Position numbers and translations under genes: made by a program | Assembly: GCF_009687865.1 (NCBI RefSeq) | Contig: NZ_BLAE01000018.1 | Coordinates: 1 to 36,745 of the forward strand | Direction: 5' to 3' | DNA from: Acrocarpospora macrocephala | GTDB lineage: Bacteria > Actinomycetota > Actinomycetes > Streptosporangiales > Streptosporangiaceae | Length of the DNA stretch: 36,745 nucleotides | The notes under the pieces: model-generated | Databases searched by the model: none | What the model saw: the letters and a program-made list of their open reading frames with translations, nothing else | What the model was told of the DNA's origin: nothing | Shown here: positions 1,039-34,271 of the stretch, one piece after another | Position numbering within the stretch: the first letter of the stretch is position 1 | Layout of the letters: each line of letters starts with the position of its first letter

Positions 1039-2385
1039 GTGCTGACTATGGAGCAGCTTCGAGTTGAGGCCGAGGCAGGCAAGATCGACACGGTGCTGCT
1101 GGGGTTCACCGACATGCAGGGGCGCCTGCAGGGCAAACGGCTGTCGGCGCGCTACTTCCTGGACGAGGTGCTCCACCACGCGGCCGAAGGCTGCAACTAC
1201 CTGCTCGCGGTGGACGTGGAGATGAACACCGTCAGCGGCTACGCGATGTCGTCCTGGGATCGTGGTTACGGTGACTTCGTCTTCAAGCCCGATATGGCCA
1301 CGCTGCGCCGGGTCCCCTGGCAGGAGGGTACGGCGCTGCTCCTGGCCGACCTGGTCTGGGAGGACGGCTCCGACGTCACGGCCTCGCCCCGGCAGATCCT
1401 GCGCCGCCAGCTGGCCCGGCTGGGTGAGCGCGGCTGGGGGGCTTATGTGGGGACCGAGCTGGAATTCTGCGTGTACGCCGACAGCTACGAGGAGGCGTGG
1501 CGGAACGCGTACCGCGATCTGACCCCCTCGAACCTCTACAACGTGGATTATTCGCTGCTCGGCACCTCCCGGGTGGAGCCGCTGCTGCGCCGGATCCGGC
1601 TGGGTATGGAGGGTGCGGGGCTCTACGTGGAGTCGGCCAAGGGCGAGTGCAACCTGGGGCAGCACGAGATCGCGTTCCGGTATACCGACGCGCTCGCCAC
1701 TTGCGACAACCACTCGATCTACAAGAACGGCGCGAAGGAGATCGCGGCCCAGGAGGGCATGTCGTTGACCTTCATGGCCAAGCCGAACCAGCGCGAGGGC
1801 AATTCCTGCCATATCCACATATCGCTGAGGGACGCCGACGGGACCCCGGTGATGGCCGGGTCCGAGCCCTATGGCCTGTCCAAGATCGGGCAGCATTTCA
1901 TCGCCGGGCAGCTGGCCGCGATGCGGGAACTCACCCTCCTCTACGCGCCCAACATCAACTCATATAAGCGGTATGTCCCCGGCTCGTTCGCCCCGACCGC
2001 CGTCAAATGGGGCATCGACAACCGCACCTGCTCGCTCCGCCTGGTCGGCCACGGCCACGGGCTCCGGATCGAGAACCGGGTGCCCGGCGGCGACGTGAAC
2101 CCCTACCTCGCGGTGTCCGCACTGATCGCGGCCGGTCTGTACGGCATCGAGAACGAGCTCCCGCTGGAGGACCCCTACGGCGGAAATGCCTATATTTCCG
2201 ACGCTGAGACGGTTCCAGCGACGCTGCGCGACGCGCTCGACCTGTTCGCGGGCTCCACGCTGGCCGCCACCGCGTTCGGGCAGGATGTCGTAGACCATTA
2301 CGCCAACTACGCCAAGGTGGAGCTGGCCGCCTTCGACGCGGCCGTCACGGACTGGGAGATGTTCCGGGGGTTCGAACGACTGTGA
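1039..2385 (+). CDS. Glutamine synthetase-like gamma-glutamyl-amine ligase
   Basis: This 448-residue protein is a member of the glutamine synthetase fold that probably joins glutamate to an amine using ATP, rather than to ammonia. Visible catalytic elements are the metal-site GTELEF segment, ESAKGECNLGQHEIAFRY, the GNSCHIHISL histidine motif, the NINSYKRYVPGSFAPTAVKW loop and ENRVPGGDVNPYLA. The C-terminus is shorter than in housekeeping GlnA and no clear adenylylation-loop NLYxLP motif is seen, as in PuuA and GlnA3/GlnA4-type enzymes. The start is GTG 1039, with GAAGGG eight bases upstream; ATG 1048 is an alternative. The gene is first in an operon with aldehyde dehydrogenase, short-chain dehydrogenase and gamma-glutamyl hydrolase. 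The neighbours suggest ethanolamine or another amino alcohol as substrate; a polyamine is the alternative. The stop codon lies in a GTGA that begins a repeat-derived mini-ORF. Confidence 0.88.
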   Translation: MLTMEQLRVEAEAGKIDTVLLGFTDMQGRLQGKRLSARYFLDEVLHHAAEGCNYLLAVDVEMNTVSGYAMSSWDRGYGDFVFKPDMATLRRVPWQEGTALLLADLVWEDGSDVTASPRQILRRQLARLGERGWGAYVGTELEFCVYADSYEEAWRNAYRDLTPSNLYNVDYSLLGTSRVEPLLRRIRLGMEGAGLYVESAKGECNLGQHEIAFRYTDALATCDNHSIYKNGAKEIAAQEGMSLTFMAKPNQREGNSCHIHISLRDADGTPVMAGSEPYGLSKIGQHFIAGQLAAMRELTLLYAPNINSYKRYVPGSFAPTAVKWGIDNRTCSLRLVGHGHGLRIENRVPGGDVNPYLAVSALIAAGLYGIENELPLEDPYGGNAYISDAETVPATLRDALDLFAGSTLAATAFGQDVVDHYANYAKVELAAFDAAVTDWEMFRGFERL

Positions 2386-2562
2386 AGATCATCAACCAAG
2401 CCAATGCAGAGCCGACCGCCTTCGACGCAGCCATCACCGACCGGCAGGCGTTCCGGGGGGTCGAACCACTGTGAAAACCGTCAACCAAGCCAATGCAGAG
2501 CCGGCCACCTTCGACACGACCGCCACCGGCCGGCAGACGTTCCGGGGGGTCGAACCACTGTG
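2293..2562 (+). repeat. 89-bp tandem repeat, three copies, at the ligase/dehydrogenase junction
   Basis: Copy 1 is the last part of the ligase gene (about 2293-2381), copy 2 is 2382-2470 and copy 3 is 2471-2559. Copies 2 and 3 each consist of the first five codons of the dehydrogenase (GTGAAGATCATCAA or a variant) followed by a diverged copy of the last 24-25 ligase codons, ending in CGAACCACT. Shared blocks include GCCAATGCAGAGCCG and TTCCGGGGGGTCGAACCACT. GTG positions 2382, 2471 and 2560 are exactly 89 bp apart. The array fills the gap between the ligase stop and the dehydrogenase start, two genes that would otherwise overlap by GTGA. Confidence 0.85.
2382..2474 (+). other. Repeat-derived mini-ORF 1 (30 codons)
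   Basis: GTG 2382 overlaps the ligase stop as GTGA. The frame runs for 30 codons and ends in TGA at 2472-2474, itself part of the next GTGA. The peptide begins VKIINQANAEP and ends FRGVEPL, that is, the dehydrogenase N-terminus fused to a ligase-like C-terminus. It may be translated by coupling or may simply be a duplication scar; no separate ribosome binding site is seen. Confidence 0.4.
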
Positions 2563-2563
2563 A
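2471..2563 (+). other. Repeat-derived mini-ORF 2 (30 codons)
   Basis: This is a second link of the same length, from GTG 2471 to TGA 2561-2563, and its stop overlaps the dehydrogenase start at 2560. The peptide begins VKTVNQANAEP and ends FRGVEPL. The open frame and both overlaps survived although the two units differ at many positions, so coupling may be under selection. Confidence 0.4.
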
Positions 2564-3897
2564 AGATCATCAATCCGGCCACCGAGGAGGTCGTCGCCGA
2601 CATTGAGCTCGCCGACGCCGCCGAAGTCGACCGCGCGGTGGAACGAGCTCGGGCAGCTTTCCGGACATGGCGTGAAATATCGCCCGGGGATCGGGCGCGG
2701 TTGCTGCGGGCCTTCGCCCGACAGGTCGAGGAGCACGCTGAGGAGCTCGCCCAGCTGGAGATCACCAACTCCGGCCACACCGTCGGCAACGCCCGGTGGG
2801 AAGCCGGGCATGTCCGCGATGTCCTGCACTTCTACGCGGGCGCGCCCGAGCGTAACCACGGCAAGCAGATCCCCGTCCCCGGCGGGATCGACATCACCTT
2901 CCAGGAGCCGCTCGGCGTGGTCGGGGTGATCGTGCCGTGGAACTTCCCGATGGTGATCATGATGTGGGGGGTCGCCCCGGCCCTCGCCGCCGGGAACACG
3001 GTGATCGTGAAACCGGCCGAATGGACTCCGCTGACGGCGCTGCGGCTGGCCGAGCTGGCCCTGGCGGCGGGCCTCCCCGAGGGGGTGCTCCAGGTCCTGC
3101 CTGGCGCAGGGGAGGTCGCGGGAGCCCGCCTGGTGGACCACCCCGACGTTGCCAAGATCGTCTTCACGGGATCCACCGAGGTCGGCAAGCAGATCGCCGC
3201 GAAGGCCGCGGGACAGGTCAAGCGCGTCACGCTCGAACTGGGCGGGAAGAGCGCCAACATCGTCTTCGCCGATTCCGACCTGGCCAAGGCCGCGGCCTCC
3301 GCGCCGATGGCGGTGTTCGACAACTCCGGGCAGGACTGCTGCGCTCGGTCCAGGATTCTGGTGGAGCGTTCCGTCTATGACGAGTTCCTGGGACGGTTGA
3401 CGGAGGCCGTACAGGAATTGAAGGTCGGAGATCCCCGCGATCCGGACACGGCGCTCGGGCCGTTGATCAGTGCCGAGCATCGGGAGCGGGTGGCCTCGTT
3501 CGTCGAGAGACCGTACTTCCAGGGAGAATGCCCGGCGGGGCCCGGTTTCTGGTTCCCGGCCACCGTGCTGACTGGGGATGAGGATCGGGCCTTCCGCGAG
3601 GAGGTCTTCGGGCCGGTCGTGTCGGTGGTGCCTTTCCAGGATGAAGCGGACGCGATCGCGATCGCCAACGACACGCCATACGGGTTGTCCGGGTCCATCT
3701 GGACCAGGGATGTGGGCCGGGCGTTGCGGGTGGCGCGGGCGGTCGAGGCGGGGAACCTGTCGGTCAACTCGCATTCCAGCGTCCGCTACTGGACGCCGTT
3801 CGGCGGCTTCAAACAGTCCGGCCTCGGCCGGGAACTCGGCCCGGACGCGCTCGCCGCGTTCACCGAGACCAAGAACGTCTTCATCGCATCGGAGTAG
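2560..3897 (+). CDS. NAD(P)-dependent aldehyde dehydrogenase
   Basis: This 445-residue enzyme of the aldehyde dehydrogenase superfamily oxidises an aldehyde to an acid in the cytosol. Visible elements are the PWNFPMVIMMW segment, the cofactor motif FTGSTEVGK, the general base Glu226 in LELGGKS, and the catalytic Cys260 in NSGQDCC. EEVFGPV and PFGGFKQSGLGRE lie near the C-terminus. Start GTG 2560 is chosen because the protein then begins VKIINPATEEVV, as expected for the family; the longer open frame upstream translates the 89-bp repeats out of frame. In context it probably acts on a gamma-glutamyl-linked aldehyde made from the ligase product, comparable to PuuC, and the SDR starts nine bases after it. 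If the substrate is gamma-glutamylethanolamide, the product would be gamma-glutamylglycine. Confidence 0.9.
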   Translation: MKIINPATEEVVADIELADAAEVDRAVERARAAFRTWREISPGDRARLLRAFARQVEEHAEELAQLEITNSGHTVGNARWEAGHVRDVLHFYAGAPERNHGKQIPVPGGIDITFQEPLGVVGVIVPWNFPMVIMMWGVAPALAAGNTVIVKPAEWTPLTALRLAELALAAGLPEGVLQVLPGAGEVAGARLVDHPDVAKIVFTGSTEVGKQIAAKAAGQVKRVTLELGGKSANIVFADSDLAKAAASAPMAVFDNSGQDCCARSRILVERSVYDEFLGRLTEAVQELKVGDPRDPDTALGPLISAEHRERVASFVERPYFQGECPAGPGFWFPATVLTGDEDRAFREEVFGPVVSVVPFQDEADAIAIANDTPYGLSGSIWTRDVGRALRVARAVEAGNLSVNSHSSVRYWTPFGGFKQSGLGRELGPDALAAFTETKNVFIASE

Positions 3898-3905
3898 AGG
3901 TTTAC

Positions 3906-4670
3906 ATGCAGCGTTTGCAGGACCGGGTGGCCGTCATCACCGGCGGCGCCGGGGGGATCGGCCTGGCCACTGCCAGGCGGTTCGCCGCGGAGGGGGCCAA
4001 ACTGGTCCTGGTCGACCTGGATGAGAACGTCGGCGAGCAGGTCGCGGCGGAGGTCGGGGGGATCTTCGTCCGGGCCGACGTGACCAGCGAGGACGACGTG
4101 ATCCGGATGTTCCAGGTGGCCTACGACACCTACGGCAGCGTGGACATCGCGTTCAACAACGCGGGCATCTCGCCGACCGACGACGACTCGATCCTGACCA
4201 CGGGGATCGACGTTTGGCGGAAGGTGCAGGAGGTCAACCTTACGAGCGTGTACCTGTGCTGCAAGCATGTGCTGCCCTATATGCAACGGCAGGGGAAGGG
4301 GTCGATCATCAACACCGCGTCGTTCGTGGCGGTGATGGGGTCGGCGACGTCACAGGTGTCGTACACGGCGTCCAAGGGCGGGGTGCTGGCGATGAGCAGG
4401 GAACTGGGGGTGCAGTTCGCGCGGGAGGGCATCCGGGTGAACGCGCTCTGTCCCGGGCCGGTGGACACGCCCCTGCTCAGGGAGCTGTTCGCGAAGGATC
4501 CGGAGCGGGCGCAGCGGCGGCTGGTTCATGTGCCGATGGGGCGGTTCGCGCGGGCGGAGGAGATCGCGGCGGCGGTGGCGTTCCTGGCGTCCGATGACGC
4601 GTCGTTCATCACAGGGGCGGAGTTCCTGGTGGACGGTGGTATTTCCGGCGCTTATGTGACGCCGCTGTGA
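3906..4670 (+). CDS. Short-chain dehydrogenase/reductase (SDR)
   Basis: This is a 254-residue classical SDR. It has the Rossmann motif TGGAGGIG near residue 13, NNAG, the catalytic serine region NTASFVAVMGS, and the Tyr-x3-Lys pair in SYTASKGG. The acidic D in LVLVDLDEN after the second beta strand favours NAD. The last part, FITGAEFLVDGG, is typical of the family. GAGG lies before ATG 3906. The stop overlaps the next gene as GTGA, so the two are probably translationally coupled. Name-level homology would suggest a 3-oxoacyl reductase, but the operon suggests oxidation of a hydroxyl group, such as gamma-glutamylethanolamide to the aldehyde used by the preceding gene product. That role is inferred from the missing amine oxidase. 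Confidence 0.87.
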   Translation: MQRLQDRVAVITGGAGGIGLATARRFAAEGAKLVLVDLDENVGEQVAAEVGGIFVRADVTSEDDVIRMFQVAYDTYGSVDIAFNNAGISPTDDDSILTTGIDVWRKVQEVNLTSVYLCCKHVLPYMQRQGKGSIINTASFVAVMGSATSQVSYTASKGGVLAMSRELGVQFAREGIRVNALCPGPVDTPLLRELFAKDPERAQRRLVHVPMGRFARAEEIAAAVAFLASDDASFITGAEFLVDGGISGAYVTPL

Positions 4671-5407
4671 GGCCGGTGATCGGGATCACGTGTTACGTCG
4701 AGCCCGCGGCGTACACGGTGTGGGAGATGACGGCGGCGCTGTTGCCGTACGACTACGTGCGGCACGTCGAGCGGGCGGGCGGGCAGCCGGTGATCCTGCC
4801 GCCCGCCGGGGAGCCCGCCACGCTGACCGGGCGGCTGGACGGCCTGATCCTGGCCGGAGGCGGCGACATCGACCCGACGCGCTACGCCGCGGACCCCCTC
4901 CCAACCACCTCCTATATCCGGAAATTTCGGGATGATGCCGAGTTCGGGCTGGTCCGGGCGGCGCTGGCGGGCGGGTTGCCGTTTCTGGGGATCTGCCGGG
5001 GACTTCAGGTGCTCAACGTCGCCCTCGGCGGGACGCTGCATCAGCACGTTCCCGACGTGGTCGGCCACACCGGCCATTCCCCCGCTCCGGGCACATTCGG
5101 CCGCCTTCCCGTACGGCTCTCGCCGGAACTCGCCAAGATCTACGAATCCGACGAGATCACCCCGGCCCACTACCACCACCAGTCCATCGACCGCCTGGCC
5201 AACGGTCTCACCGTCACCGCGACCGCCGACGACGGCACCATCGAAGCCGTACAGCTGAACGAGCGGACCACGGCCGTCCAGTGGCATCCGGAAGCCGACG
5301 AGGACGGCCGGCTCTTCGACGACTTCGTGGCCCGGATTCGGCTAGGCTGGCCGGACACCGGTGATCCCGCGCGGGAGAGCGGCCTGGCATCCGGCCAGGT
5401 CCCCTGA
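4667..5407 (+). CDS. Gamma-glutamyl hydrolase, class I glutamine amidotransferase fold (PuuD-like)
   Basis: This 246-residue peptidase C26-type hydrolase probably cleaves a gamma-glutamyl amide and frees glutamate plus the oxidised amine. The nucleophile is Cys110 in GICRGLQ, and the catalytic His207 and Glu209 lie in QWHPE. LILAGGGDIDPTRY and the YHHQSID segment are also family hallmarks. It starts at GTG 4667, overlapping the SDR stop by four bases. The last 14 codons lie inside the first aptamer of the glycine riboswitch, so the C-terminal residues after about position 232 are encoded by RNA that must also fold. If the substrate is gamma-glutamylglycine, the product glycine is the ligand of that switch. 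Confidence 0.88.
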   Translation: MRPVIGITCYVEPAAYTVWEMTAALLPYDYVRHVERAGGQPVILPPAGEPATLTGRLDGLILAGGGDIDPTRYAADPLPTTSYIRKFRDDAEFGLVRAALAGGLPFLGICRGLQVLNVALGGTLHQHVPDVVGHTGHSPAPGTFGRLPVRLSPELAKIYESDEITPAHYHHQSIDRLANGLTVTATADDGTIEAVQLNERTTAVQWHPEADEDGRLFDDFVARIRLGWPDTGDPARESGLASGQVP

Positions 5408-5552
5408 AGGAGCAAGCCCTCCCCGCGAACCTCTCAAGGCAAAGGACCGTGCGGGCCAGGTGTCCTCTGGAAAGCAGGCCTGCGCCTCGCCGAAGGTGAA
5501 AGTCCGGGCAAAATCCGGGCGAAGCTCTCAGGCACCGATGACAGAGGGGGAG
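5366..5552 (+). ncRNA. Tandem glycine riboswitch (two aptamers)
   Basis: Aptamer 1 spans about 5366-5455. P1 pairs CCCGCGC (5366-5372) with GTGCGGG (5449-5455), with one G-U pair. The conserved GGGAGAG, CTGAAGGAGCAAG and CTCTCAAGGCAAAGGACCG blocks follow in order. Aptamer 2 spans about 5462-5552. Its P1 pairs CCTCTG (5464-5469) with CAGAGG (5542-5547), and it holds GCCGAAGGTGAAA and CTCTCAGGCACCGATGACAG. The two are joined by a short linker, as in cooperative glycine switches, and lie just before gcvT. The 5' end overlaps the hydrolase gene. A possible -10 (TAGGCT, 5343-5348) lies inside that gene. Such switches normally turn on glycine cleavage genes when glycine is plentiful. No clear terminator hairpin is seen before gcvT, so control may act on translation. 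Confidence 0.93.
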
Positions 5553-5588
5553 GATGCAGAACATCCGACCCTGCCTGAGGTGCGCCCT

Positions 5589-30239: not shown

Positions 30240-30845
30240 ATGACACGTCTGGTGCTGGCGACCCGCAACGCGGGCAAGATCGTCGAGTTCCGCCGGATTC
30301 TGGCGGACGCGCGCGTACCCATCGATCTGGTCGGCCTGGAGGCGTTCCCCGAGATCGGCGAAGTGGCCGAGACCGGCCTCACCTTCGCGGAGAACGCCCT
30401 GCTCAAGGCCCACACCGTGGCCAAGGAGAGCGGCCTGCCCGCGGTCGCCGACGACTCCGGCCTCTGCGTCGACGCCCTGAACGGCATGCCCGGCATCTTC
30501 TCGGCCCGCTGGTCGGGCGGCCACGGCGACGACCAGGCCAACCTGGCCCTCCTGCTGGCCCAGCTCACCGACGTCCCCGACAACCGCCGCCAGGCCCACT
30601 TCACCTGTACGGCGGCGCTCGCGCTGCCCTCAGGCGAGGAACGGGTGGTCGACGGCATCATGACCGGCACGCTAATCCGCGAGCCCCGCGGCACCAACGG
30701 CTTCGGCTACGACCCGATCTTCGTCGCCGACGGCGAAACCCGCACCACAGGCGAAATGCCGGCCGCCGAAAAGGACGCCATCAGCCACCGGGGCAAATCC
30801 TTCCGCGCCCTGATCCCGGTCATCATCGAGGTCCTCGGCACCTGA
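30240..30845 (+). CDS. rdgB: XTP/dITP diphosphatase (RdgB/HAM1)
   Basis: The 201-residue pyrophosphatase removes non-canonical purine nucleoside triphosphates such as dITP and XTP. Markers are the N-terminal ATRNAGKIVEFRRIL, the metal-binding ADDSGLCVDALNG, PGIFSARWSG, GTNGFGYDPIF and SHRGKSFRAL. Length and start (ATG 30240) are normal. It is the last gene of the murI-rph block; a minisatellite begins 18 bp after its stop. Confidence 0.96.
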   Translation: MTRLVLATRNAGKIVEFRRILADARVPIDLVGLEAFPEIGEVAETGLTFAENALLKAHTVAKESGLPAVADDSGLCVDALNGMPGIFSARWSGGHGDDQANLALLLAQLTDVPDNRRQAHFTCTAALALPSGEERVVDGIMTGTLIREPRGTNGFGYDPIFVADGETRTTGEMPAAEKDAISHRGKSFRALIPVIIEVLGT

Positions 30846-30862
30846 CCTGGCGCCTTCGCTTG

Positions 30863-31060
30863 AGAGCCACCGTGGGAATCTTCGCCGGAGAACCATCGTG
30901 AAGTCTTCGTGGGAGAACCACCGTGGGAATCTTCGCCGGAGAACCATCGTGAAGTCTTCGTGGGAGAACCACCGTGGAGTCTTCGTGGGAGAACCACCGG
31001 GGCATCTTCGCGGGAGACCACCGTGGAGTCTTCTCGGATACACCCTGGACGTCTTCGAGG
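30863..31060 (+). repeat. 25/26-bp tandem minisatellite, about seven to eight units
   Basis: Units begin at 30863, 30889, 30914, 30940, 30965, 30990, 31015 and, degenerate, 31038. The consensus starts AGAACCACCGTGGAGTCTTC and ends GTGGG or GCCGG. Units 1 and 3 are 26 bp and units 2 and 4 are 25 bp and share TCGTGAAG, so an older 51-bp dimer was duplicated. A further partial unit, AGAACCACCGTG, lies at 31123. Units are contiguous with no spacers, so it is not a CRISPR array. No plus-strand gene is supported across it. Confidence 0.9.
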
Positions 31061-31233: not shown

Positions 31234-32928
31234 GTGGAACCACGCACTCGCCCGCCCGCTTGGGCGGCCGCTCTGGCGGGGGTGACGGCCGGAGCCGTCG
31301 CGCTCGGTATCGCCCAGCTCGTCGCCGGGGTCTTCGGCGGAACCTCGCCGATCATCGCGGTCGGAAACTCGGCCGTCGACAACACGCCGTTGTGGCTGAA
31401 GGAATGGGCGATCCGCACCTTCGGCGAGAACGACAAGAACGTGCTCATCGGCGGCATCCTCGTCGTCGTCGCCCTGCTCGCCGCCGCCCTCGGCGTGCTC
31501 TCCCGCCGGCGGGTGGGCTTCGGCGTGGCCGGGTTGTGGCTCTTCGGCCTGGTCGGCATGGTCGCCGTCCTCACCGGGGCCGAGGCAGGGCCGCTCGCCA
31601 TCCTGCCGCCCCTGATCGGCGCCGGAGCCGGGGCGATGACCTTGTCGTCGCTGTTCCGGCGGCTGGAACCGCCCCCCTGGGCCGAGTCGGAACGCGCCGA
31701 AGCGCTCGCCGCGGCGAAAACCGATGATTCGCGCGCCGCAGCGGAACCCGGTGATTCACACGCAGCGGCGGAGCATGACGATTCACACGCAGCGGCGGAA
31801 CGGGACGATTCCGGGAAAACGGAAATGCCGCCCGTGATGCGGGCGGGATCCGAGCTGCATGCGTTCAGCAGGCGTCGTTTGCTGACCGGCGTCGGCGTGG
31901 GCGTGGGCGTCGCCGGTGTGTCCGGGATCGCGGGCCAGCTCCTCTCCGGCCGCAACGACGTCTCCGGTGCCCGCACGGCCGTCGCCAAGGCGCTGCCGAC
32001 CGCGGCCACACCGTTGCCGCCCCTCCCCGCCGGAGTGGATTTCAAGATCCCGAACCTGTCCCCCTTCTCGACCCCCAACCACGACTTCTACCGCGTGGAC
32101 ACCGCCCTGGTCGTGCCCGCCGTGGACCCGAAGAGCTGGACCCTGAAAATCCACGGCATGGTGGACAAACCCATCGAGATCACCTTCGACGACCTCATCA
32201 AACGCCCGCTGATGGAAGCCGACGTCACCCTGACCTGCGTCTCCAACGAGGTCAACGGCCCCTACGTAGGGAACGCCCGATGGCTCGGCGTGCGCATGGC
32301 CGACGTCCTGCGCGAGGCGGGCCTGCAGGCCAACGCCGACATGCTGCTCAGCACCTCCAGCGACGGCTGGACCTGCGGCACCCCCATCGACATCGTCATG
32401 GACGGCCGCGACGCCCTGTTCGCCATCGCGATGAACGGCGAGGTCCTCCCCGTCTCCCACGGCTTCCCCGTCCGCCAGGTGGTCCCCGGGCTGTACGGCT
32501 ACGTCTCCGCCACCAAATGGGTCACCGACATCAAGGTCACCCGCTACGACCTCGACGAGGCCTACTGGACTCCCCGAGGCTGGTCCGCCATGGGCCCCAT
32601 CAAGACCGGCTCCCGCATCGACCTCCCCCGCAACAAGGTCAAACCCGGCCGCAACACGATCGCCGGCGTCGCCTGGGCCCAGCACCGCGGCATCGAAAAG
32701 GTGGAAGTCCAGGTCGATGACGGCGACTGGCGCGTCGCCCGCCTGGCCGAAGTCCCCGGCCCCGACACCTGGCGCCAGTGGGCGATCGACTGGGACTTCA
32801 CCCCCGGCCTCCACACCATCCGCTGCCGCGCCACCGACGGCACCGGCCAAACCCAAACCGCCAACGGCGCCCCACCCGCCCCCAACGGCGCAACCGGCTA
32901 CCCCACCGTCCTGATGGAAGCCGTCTAA
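31234..32928 (+). CDS. Membrane-anchored molybdopterin-dependent oxidoreductase (sulfite oxidase family)
   Basis: The 564-residue protein has an N-terminal membrane part of about four helices (residues 10-145), a charged linker with DDSHAAAE-type repeats (about 165-195), and then a twin-arginine-like SRRRLLTGVGVGVGVAG segment near 213. The sulfite-oxidase molybdopterin domain runs from about 270 to 455. Cys335 in VTLTCVSNEVNG is the expected molybdenum ligand. A C-terminal dimerisation domain follows (SRIDLPRNKVKPGRNTIAGV). The catalytic domain is predicted outside the membrane. The start is GTG 31234 with GGAG just upstream. The physiological substrate is not known; sulfite or a sulfoxide is possible. 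Its 3' end is echoed in repeats downstream. Confidence 0.92.
   Translation: MEPRTRPPAWAAALAGVTAGAVALGIAQLVAGVFGGTSPIIAVGNSAVDNTPLWLKEWAIRTFGENDKNVLIGGILVVVALLAAALGVLSRRRVGFGVAGLWLFGLVGMVAVLTGAEAGPLAILPPLIGAGAGAMTLSSLFRRLEPPPWAESERAEALAAAKTDDSRAAAEPGDSHAAAEHDDSHAAAERDDSGKTEMPPVMRAGSELHAFSRRRLLTGVGVGVGVAGVSGIAGQLLSGRNDVSGARTAVAKALPTAATPLPPLPAGVDFKIPNLSPFSTPNHDFYRVDTALVVPAVDPKSWTLKIHGMVDKPIEITFDDLIKRPLMEADVTLTCVSNEVNGPYVGNARWLGVRMADVLREAGLQANADMLLSTSSDGWTCGTPIDIVMDGRDALFAIAMNGEVLPVSHGFPVRQVVPGLYGYVSATKWVTDIKVTRYDLDEAYWTPRGWSAMGPIKTGSRIDLPRNKVKPGRNTIAGVAWAQHRGIEKVEVQVDDGDWRVARLAEVPGPDTWRQWAIDWDFTPGLHTIRCRATDGTGQTQTANGAPPAPNGATGYPTVLMEAV
31723..31806 (+). repeat. In-frame 24-bp repeats in the molybdoenzyme linker
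   Basis: Three to four 24-bp units encode DDSRAAAEP / GDSHAAAEH / DDSHAAAER. GATTCACACGCAGCGGCGGA occurs twice without change. They lie between the membrane part and the catalytic domain and probably only set linker length. Confidence 0.8.
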
Positions 32929-32968
32929 CCGACCAGCTTGCCCCGACCAGTCGGCCATCCAACCGACG

Positions 32969-33130
32969 CCTCTCCGTCCAAATGGAAACCACCACCCCAC
33001 GCAGCAATCGACCAACCGACCGGCATCTCCGTCCAAAGGGAAGCCACCCCCCACGCAGCATGCGCTAAGCCAATCGACCATCCGACCGAGCCCTCCGTGC
33101 CCACGGAAGCCCGGCCATTCCGCGCAGCTC
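32969..33130 (+). repeat. Degenerate tandem repeats, 54-68 bp, after the molybdoenzyme
   Basis: Three units start near 32969, 33023 and 33091 with CTCCGTCC(A) then GGAAnCC, CCACGCAGCA and ATCGACCAnCCGACCG. The CCGTCC...ATGGAAGCC part resembles the 3' end of the preceding gene (CGTCCTGATGGAAGCCGTCTAA). Another copy of that tail, CGTCCTGGTGGAAGCCGTTA, lies at 33322. The interval 32929-33497 otherwise holds no gene that can be supported; the open frame across it has poor codon character. Confidence 0.65.
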
Positions 33131-33497
33131 ACCCAAGCCGCCCAGCCTCATACGCGGTTCGTGTCCCTCGGTGCAGGGCTTCCTCCAGCCCTCACCGCAC
33201 GATGACGCCCTTGCCTCCGACTCGGGGTTAGCACCTCTGCCCCCAGGAGACCTCCTCCCCCAAGCAATCGCCCATGCTGGGCGCACAGCATCGAGCCGAC
33301 TGGCCCTGCGACCGGCGTCTTCGTCCTGGTGGAAGCCGTTAATCCTGGCTGCGCCAACGCGTGGTCTTTCGTGTGGCGGCCGGTTCTTGGGTTGGCCAGC
33401 TGAGCGGCATGATTTGGGAAATACGACTTACCAGACGGGAGCGGGCTCTACGATCGACATCCTGAGGGGGAGGGGCCTGCAGTTGGTTTTCAGGGGG

Positions 33498-34271
33498 ATG
33501 GCCGATCGTCAGTCGCGGTGGCGGCTGCCGAGCGGCGTCTACAACCCCGTCGTCACGGGTGACGGCCGCCGCTGGCGTGACTATGAGCACGCCGCTGAGA
33601 CGCCGGCCCCGACGCTGGATGAGCGACCGTCCCTCCCGCGGAGCTCAGGCGTCGGCAACGACTGGTTCGATCGTGGTTGCCGTCCGCCCCGCCTGGACGA
33701 GGCCAGGCCGTACGGGATCGCGGGGGGTCTGGCCCGGCCGGACCCGCAGACGCAGGAGGACCTGCTGCAGGCGGCGGCCGGCCGATTCCCGGATCCGCGC
33801 GGCACCTGGATCCGGCTGATCAACGCGGAGGGTCCGACGGAGGACCCCTTCCGGTCTACCAACGCGATCGACTGCGCCCTCGCCGTCCTGTCCACCTGGC
33901 ACGGCGAGCCCGCGGTGGCGGCCCCGCGCCAGCCCGAATACGACCGCGCGGGCAAGCCCGTGCTGTCCGGCGAGACCGGCGGGGTGGCCAGGGCCGAACA
34001 GTGGCTGGGCCATCGATTCGAGTATCTGGGCCAGGGCCGCCGCGCCTACTCCACCATCGCCCAGCGCCTGCTCACGGGTGGCCAGGGCGCCGCCGCCATG
34101 CTCATCACCCGCTGGCCCAACGGCGGCAGCCACGCCTGGAACGCCGTCAACTCCGGCGGCGAGGTCCTCTGGATCGACGCCCAGCGCGGCCACATGGCCG
34201 TCGAACCCCCCTACGAGAACGTCACCGGCGTCTTCTGCGTCATCATCGACCACACCGGCCAGCGAATTTGA
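33498..34271 (+). CDS. Papain-fold glutamine deamidase toxin domain protein (N-terminus uncertain)
   Basis: The C-terminal 150-170 residues match the glutamine deamidase (papain-fold, Tox-PL) domain of polymorphic toxins. The triad is probably Cys126 in NAIDCAL, His212 in GSHAWNAV and Asp227 in WIDAQRGHM. The domain is preceded by LARPDPQTQEDLL and GTWIRLINAEGP, as in other actinomycete toxins, which usually read NCVDCAL. Such domains deamidate glutamine in target proteins. The frame is open from 33171, but its first part looks non-coding; ATG 33498 with a G-rich upstream is used here, and the true start could differ. No secretion (WXG100, RHS) domain is present, so the gene may be an orphan toxin tip. 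An immunity-like gene follows 25 bp later. Confidence 0.72.
   Translation: MADRQSRWRLPSGVYNPVVTGDGRRWRDYEHAAETPAPTLDERPSLPRSSGVGNDWFDRGCRPPRLDEARPYGIAGGLARPDPQTQEDLLQAAAGRFPDPRGTWIRLINAEGPTEDPFRSTNAIDCALAVLSTWHGEPAVAAPRQPEYDRAGKPVLSGETGGVARAEQWLGHRFEYLGQGRRAYSTIAQRLLTGGQGAAAMLITRWPNGGSHAWNAVNSGGEVLWIDAQRGHMAVEPPYENVTGVFCVIIDHTGQRI

Follow-up and report, generated by a model that had tools for sequence, protein, structure and literature searches.

Can two adjacent genes that share a four-base stop/start overlap stay translationally coupled once their junction has been duplicated? This question is raised by Acrocarpospora macrocephala, a soil actinomycete of the family Streptosporangiaceae, where we analysed a window of 36,745 nucleotides (contig NZ_BLAE01000018.1). 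Here the stop of a glutamine-synthetase-like ligase and the start of an aldehyde dehydrogenase are separated by a gap of 174 nt, and two short open reading frames (mini-ORFs) lie between them. The features of the locus, in window coordinates, are as follows.

1039..2385, + strand: glutamine-synthetase-like ligase (ORF list; Pfam PF00120 Gln-synt_C, E=1e-98)
2304..2392, + strand: original 89-bp unit (sequence; comparison with relatives)
2366..2370, + strand: GGGGG ribosome-binding-like site before mini-ORF 1 (anti-SD duplex -9.8 kcal/mol)
2382..2385, + strand: GTGA joint 1, ligase stop / mini-ORF 1 start
2382..2474, + strand: mini-ORF 1, 30 codons and stop (ORF list)
2393..2481, + strand: extra 89-bp unit 1 (Tandem Repeats Finder; unit alignment)
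2455..2460, + strand: GGGGGG site before mini-ORF 2 (anti-SD duplex -10.6 kcal/mol)
2471..2474, + strand: GTGA joint 2, mini-ORF 1 stop / mini-ORF 2 start
2471..2563, + strand: mini-ORF 2, 30 codons and stop (ORF list)
2482..2570, + strand: extra 89-bp unit 2 (Tandem Repeats Finder; unit alignment)
2544..2549, + strand: GGGGGG site before the dehydrogenase start (anti-SD duplex -10.6 kcal/mol)
2560..2563, + strand: GTGA joint 3, mini-ORF 2 stop / dehydrogenase start
2560..3897, + strand: aldehyde dehydrogenase (GTG start at 2560; Pfam PF00171, E=6e-165)
3906-4670: short-chain dehydrogenase, after the aldehyde dehydrogenase
4667-5407: class-I glutamine amidotransferase, after the short-chain dehydrogenase

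Structure of the ligase/dehydrogenase junction

The initial annotation described two extra 89-bp units between the ligase and the dehydrogenase, and both the sequence and Tandem Repeats Finder bear this out: three copies, namely the original junction and the two extra units, lie in tandem. Over 2320-2573 the program finds a period of 89, 2.9 copies, 84% match and 0% indels, with a score of 375, and given this score and the absence of indels the array is not a chance pattern. The unit bounds were set by the CAAC common to the breakpoints (2304, 2393 and 2482). The original unit thereby consists of CAAC, the last 25 ligase codons and the stop, followed by the post-joint bases up to the CAAC breakpoint. 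Comparison with relatives confirmed that a unit combines the dehydrogenase start codons with the ligase tail, and the final 75 coding bases of the ligase recur as a copy in each mini-ORF. As had been claimed, the 30-codon ORFs of the ORF list each run from the previous GTGA to the next, and all four-base overlaps are intact in the sequence, with GTGA at 2382, 2471 and 2560. Upstream of all three GTGs a GGGGG or GGGGGG ends at a distance of 10-11 nt.

The order of the genes in this row is like that of polyamine-type gamma-glutamylation operons. The best NCBIfam model for the ligase is TIGR03105, at 248.1 bits (below the cutoff of 469.6), and the best NCBIfam score of the aldehyde dehydrogenase is also under its family cutoff; for this reason we claim no substrate for either enzyme. 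The dehydrogenase start at GTG 2560 is supported by the alignment, which in most relatives begins at the same residue. With its own SD-like site at 2544..2549 the dehydrogenase could start without any relay. Within 2200-2700 no internal promoter (sigma-70-like promoters being those scanned for) or terminator was found, and the folding energy of the RNA over 2290-2620 is not below that of shuffled sequences (z +0.60).

Three further observations concern the gene row. A second GTGA overlap, at 4667-4670, joins the short-chain dehydrogenase stop to the amidotransferase start and has no extra units. Two adjoining glycine riboswitch aptamers (RF00504) occupy 5362-5554, both upstream of gcvT, the first starting within the end of the amidotransferase ORF. 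Ahead of the ligase, the spacer at 929-1038 aligns with A. pleiomorpha over 110 bases with 0 substitutions, suggestive of a conserved control region.

Copy number and origin of the extra units

The ligase stop and the dehydrogenase start had been proposed to derive from a single GTGA, and a comparison of the junction in related genomes had been suggested. Five Acrocarpospora genomes, among them that of the window and those of A. pleiomorpha, A. corrugata and A. catenulata, carry 0, 0, 0, 1 (A. pleiomorpha) and 2 (window) extra units. Three of the five have a direct GTGA joint with no extra unit, in agreement with a single ancestral overlap. The A. pleiomorpha extra unit is exactly 89 bp long, with 30 codons and GTGA at both ends; in this one sister species no frame is broken and no GTGA lost.

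Further afield, we compared the named relatives' loci (the best 80 of 215 by ranking). Among these best 80, a plain -4 junction occurs in 29 (26 GTGA, 3 TTGA) and other spacings in 50, and A. pleiomorpha stands at +85, or -4 with one 89-bp unit added. The junction DNA was searched against 341 genomes of the family; 194 had a match at E<=1e-5, and 17 of them gave two matches. An adjoining second copy was seen only in the window genome and A. pleiomorpha, two candidates being scored per genome, a procedure by which diverged extra units could be missed. In the other 15 two-match genomes the further matches are distant or on other contigs, with the proviso that in one (G141) both main matches lie 87 bases from the contig start and adjacency cannot be judged.

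As judged from these alignments, the extra units are best read as products of local tandem duplication of the ancestral -4 GTGA junction, and the shared CAAC suggests that duplication proceeded through microhomology. The homologous junction of [Actinomadura] parvosata (L059, 4316-4385) holds an independent 33-bp tandem duplication, of length 0 mod 3 and with no relay.

Open frames and divergence of the mini-ORFs

The initial annotation saw a puzzle in a unit length that is not a multiple of 3 and yet leaves both frames open. The open frames are there, but they are no puzzle. Since 89 is 2 mod 3, the next TGA at each GTGA joint falls in frame, and the mini-ORFs are open by descent because the dehydrogenase head and the ligase tail are each read in their own native frame. 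A unit length of 2 mod 3 is itself either a one-in-three chance or an outcome of selection. Two open DTGA-to-DTGA relays can likewise be read on the antisense strand of the array. In a neutral simulation with GTGA fixed, all three known mini-ORFs were open in 47% of runs, hence frame openness alone proves nothing.

The two window mini-ORFs differ at 12 of 87 bases, all of them transitions, and window mini-ORF 1 differs from the A. pleiomorpha mini-ORF at 23 of 87. The comparison of synonymous and nonsynonymous change that had been suggested gave no sign of peptide constraint: nonsynonymous changes far outnumber synonymous ones both between the window units (10 against 2) and between the species (19 against 4), and on this pattern the peptides are unconstrained. 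Neither mini-ORF has a match in Pfam.

The corrected distance between the window extra units, 0.152 (12/87), exceeds the synonymous distance between the two species, 0.112. For the flanking genes of the window and A. pleiomorpha dS is 0.112 and dN 0.009, and dS for the split from A. corrugata is 0.368. At the synonymous rate the units would therefore be older than the split between the window species and A. pleiomorpha, and near the A. corrugata split in age. Between the window and A. pleiomorpha the mini-ORFs are 26% divergent, against 19.6% for the highest spacer segment measured. The fastest spacer segments (136-229, 30846-30985 and 32929-33170) range from 15.6 to 19.6%, their non-coding status resting on rough gene calls from codon-position patterns, one of these gene calls being antisense or out of frame to likely genes. 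Within the window the units, original and extra, differ pairwise at 12-21 of 89 positions. It may be that the units evolve faster than spacers and synonymous sites; alternatively, each species may retain different units from an older array.

Retention of the coupling signals

Against this divergence, neither GTTCCGGGGG nor GTGA varies among the five units of the window species and A. pleiomorpha. For these 14 columns, the probability that none is hit by the 23 differences separating window mini-ORF 1 from its A. pleiomorpha counterpart is 0.010. As the 14 columns were delimited after viewing the alignment, we use the stricter count of GGGGG and GTGA only (9 columns), for which P is 0.058. Some copies of the signals are needed in any case, since the ligase has to stop and the dehydrogenase to start. 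The last 26 bases of the two window extra units contain none of their 12 differences (P 0.011), for which gene conversion could be the source. The initial interpretation stands in part: GGGGG, GTGA and the exact 89-bp length, the putative coupling signals, are kept in every unit of both species with extra units. The suggested tuning of dehydrogenase output by the mini-ORFs is speculative.

Insertions and deletions are also lacking. The unit tree has at least 38 substitutions and 0 indels, whereas nearby segments taken as non-coding show 35 indels to 286 substitutions. At that ratio 4.65 indels are expected on the tree (P(0) 0.0096), and with the two tandem-array segments excluded (18 indels, 193 substitutions) 3.54 are expected (P 0.029), in both cases from few segments, some of which are probably coding. 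As a control we took arrays with a period of at least 40 that is not a multiple of 3 and a match of at most 92%: 2 of 13 rows are without indels, the window array included, compared with 4 of 12 for periods that are a multiple of 3, the Tandem Repeats Finder rows overlapping in both sets. For the A. pleiomorpha 89-bp array the program lists one strand only, and the count there comes from the alignment.

The G-rich signal can also be followed in the ligase itself. In the 29 plain -4 loci the Arg-Gly codons read CGGGGG in 25, AGGGGA in 2, AGGGGG in 1 and AGAGGA in 1. Of the 50 loci with other spacings, one has CGGGGG and 11 have CGGGG followed by any base. From this contrast, which shared descent inflates, the ligase tail tends to carry the start signal at overlapping junctions. 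Nonomuraea supplies four of the -4 species (L039, L048, L058 and L069), with AGG or AGA followed by GGA or GGG; most Nonomuraea loci seen are not -4.

Other tandem arrays

We scanned 839,630 bases of the 12.1-Mb genome (43 stretches including the window) for further arrays of this kind. This sample gave 90 Tandem Repeats Finder rows at a period of at least 20, rows of one array overlapping, and open DTGA relays were flagged in the window and in two other stretches, L126 and L141. The L141 array (394-877; 44, 126 and 170 bp) lies in the spacer between two facing ORFs. The L126 array (2435-2783; 137 bp) also lies in a spacer: an ankyrin-repeat ORF of the same strand stops before the array, and the TTGA that was flagged is distinct from this stop. 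As neither array is anchored to a gene stop, no second relay starting at a gene's stop was found in the 839,630 bases.

Among the 80 loci from relatives (585,295 bases), two were flagged for open DTGA relays, L051 and L065. The L065 array overlaps several ORFs. In L051, from Planotetraspora, a 53-bp array (2 mod 3) at 512-635 has open DTGA relays, and a 133-aa ORF (169-570), a putative gene, ends inside it with TTGA. L051 is a possible second case of the architecture.

The window itself holds two other arrays. One, at 30862-31033, has 25- and 51-bp units with a GAACCACCGTGG motif and lies in the spacer between the ORFs 30240-30845 and 31234-32928; the segment 30846-30985 of this spacer is 19.5% divergent from A. 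pleiomorpha. The other, a 55-bp array at 32959-33060, lies upstream of the ORF 33171-34271, in a spacer (32929-33170) that is 19.6% divergent.

Discussion

We propose that the array is a duplicated coupling junction that would act as a ribosome relay, preserving coupling while the peptides themselves are irrelevant, and we put the probability of this reading at roughly 55%. An ancestral -4 GTGA junction, with a ribosome-binding-like site inside the ligase tail, would have been duplicated in tandem, once in the common ancestor of the window species and A. pleiomorpha and a second time in the window lineage, unless a unit was lost in the A. pleiomorpha lineage. With a unit of 89 bp (2 mod 3), every copy would be a complete terminate-and-restart module. 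A ribosome finishing the ligase would restart at GTG 2382 and make a 30-residue peptide of no importance, stop at 2472-2474 and restart at 2471 on mini-ORF 2, then stop at 2561-2563 and restart at 2560 on the dehydrogenase. We infer that the mini-ORFs are translated and that their frames are kept by selection on coupling. A more specific version, in which mini-ORF sequence is free, selection acts only on frame, SD and GTGA, and a share of ribosomes is lost at each step such that the number of units sets the enzyme ratio, seems to us unlikely.

An SD motif inside the upstream ORF is common in termination-reinitiation gene pairs and is not required. Published work makes the relay appear physically reasonable. 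A study of six pairs from Haloferax volcanii and E. coli (PMC10666635) reports that coupling needs overlaps or very short gaps, that a gap of about 20 nt nearly abolishes termination-reinitiation and that in two E. coli pairs the last 15 nt of the upstream gene are enough. According to another study (PMC6728339), the importance of SD sites varies. If reinitiation nearly fails beyond about 20 nt, as the first study reports for Haloferax volcanii and E. coli pairs (the host here being an actinomycete), coupling across the 174-nt gap would be possible only via the mini-ORFs.

Several known systems resemble the array. Mycobacterial interspersed repetitive units (MIRUs) vary in tandem copy number, the basis of MIRU-VNTR typing; their copies are dispersed at many loci and the unit is foreign to the flanking genes. 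The 89-bp unit, in contrast, is local, with no convincing other copy in its own genome, and derives from its flanking genes, the dehydrogenase head and the ligase tail. A 2025 review (PMC12548453, in excerpt) describes the MIRU as a repeat, apparently mobile, that inserts at start codons and becomes coupled at -4, and the 89-bp units share its short repeat with a small ORF coupled at -4. Compared by description, the array would work like a MIRU, the closest known system, and is not one, since it arose locally from the two genes beside it and is no dispersed element. With termination-reinitiation gene pairs it has in common the 4-nt stop/start overlap, found at all three GTGA joints, and the SD-like motif inside the upstream ORF (cf. 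the excerpt of PMC6728339), but here the junction is iterated, with mini-ORFs between two genes. Short uORFs and bicistronic designs are alike in that a short ORF would bring ribosomes to the next start (PMC12548453, in excerpt); unlike these, the mini-ORFs come as a consecutive pair that arose by duplication, and they lie within an operon-like gene row instead of at its 5' end. Titles and abstract openings in our literature search, whose coverage left most subscription journals outside, described no locally duplicated junction relay.

The serious rival to the relay is that the units are a neutral leftover: non-functional tandem repeats, with frames open by descent and high G+C, while the dehydrogenase would be initiated independently from its SD-like site and GTG, coupling being lost or irrelevant. 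We hold this quite plausible, at somewhat under even odds. It would account for the unconstrained peptide changes, for a divergence between species (26%) above that of the fastest spacers (15.6-19.6%) and for simulated neutral units being open in 47% of runs, and it sits well with the 50 of the best 80 of 215 loci that lack the -4 overlap and with the 33-bp duplication in L059, which arose independently at the homologous junction, is 0 mod 3 and makes no relay. It does less well with the lack of any indel despite 13-26% divergence between units, and with an SD-like core and GTGA kept in all of them.

The remaining explanations carry little weight. That a MIRU-type mobile repeat inserted into a DTGA site is very improbable; the anatomy is alike, in that a short repeat holds an ORF linked through a -4 overlap (PMC12548453, in excerpt), but the unit is built from the two flanking genes, and outside the array the 12.1-Mb genome offers at best a 36-nt match with E=0.011. 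Nothing in this genome other than the three adjacent units falls below E 0.01, which rules out a dispersed repeat or MIRU family. Two 30-codon ORFs, each with SD-like site and GTG, might encode functional small peptides, which the substitution counts (2 synonymous to 10 nonsynonymous between mini-ORFs, 4 to 19 with A. pleiomorpha) and the lack of a Pfam match make scarcely credible; on these grounds we rejected a peptide function. Equally far-fetched is an in-frame upstream extension of the dehydrogenase, beginning at ATG 2404 or arising as a fusion by readthrough of the ligase stop. In the window no stop interrupts the dehydrogenase frame between the end of the ligase and GTG 2560, yet A. pleiomorpha has a stop in it inside the unit, most relatives align from the GTG start and no G-rich site is visible just upstream of 2404. 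Tandem repeats can be misassembled, but the chance of an assembly artefact is negligible, given window units that differ mutually at 12-21 of 89 positions and a separate A. pleiomorpha assembly with one unit at the equivalent place.

Read as a ribosome relay, the junction offers a way for an insertion to sit in a coupled gene pair without breaking the coupling, given a length of 2 mod 3 and a GTGA. The locus is a natural series of 0, 1 and 2 extra coupling modules within one genus. From this series one could learn if reinitiation in a chain operates in vivo and what share each step costs, and this would bear on whether coupling occurs by reinitiation or by RNA unfolding, the two models set out in the excerpt of PMC12548453.
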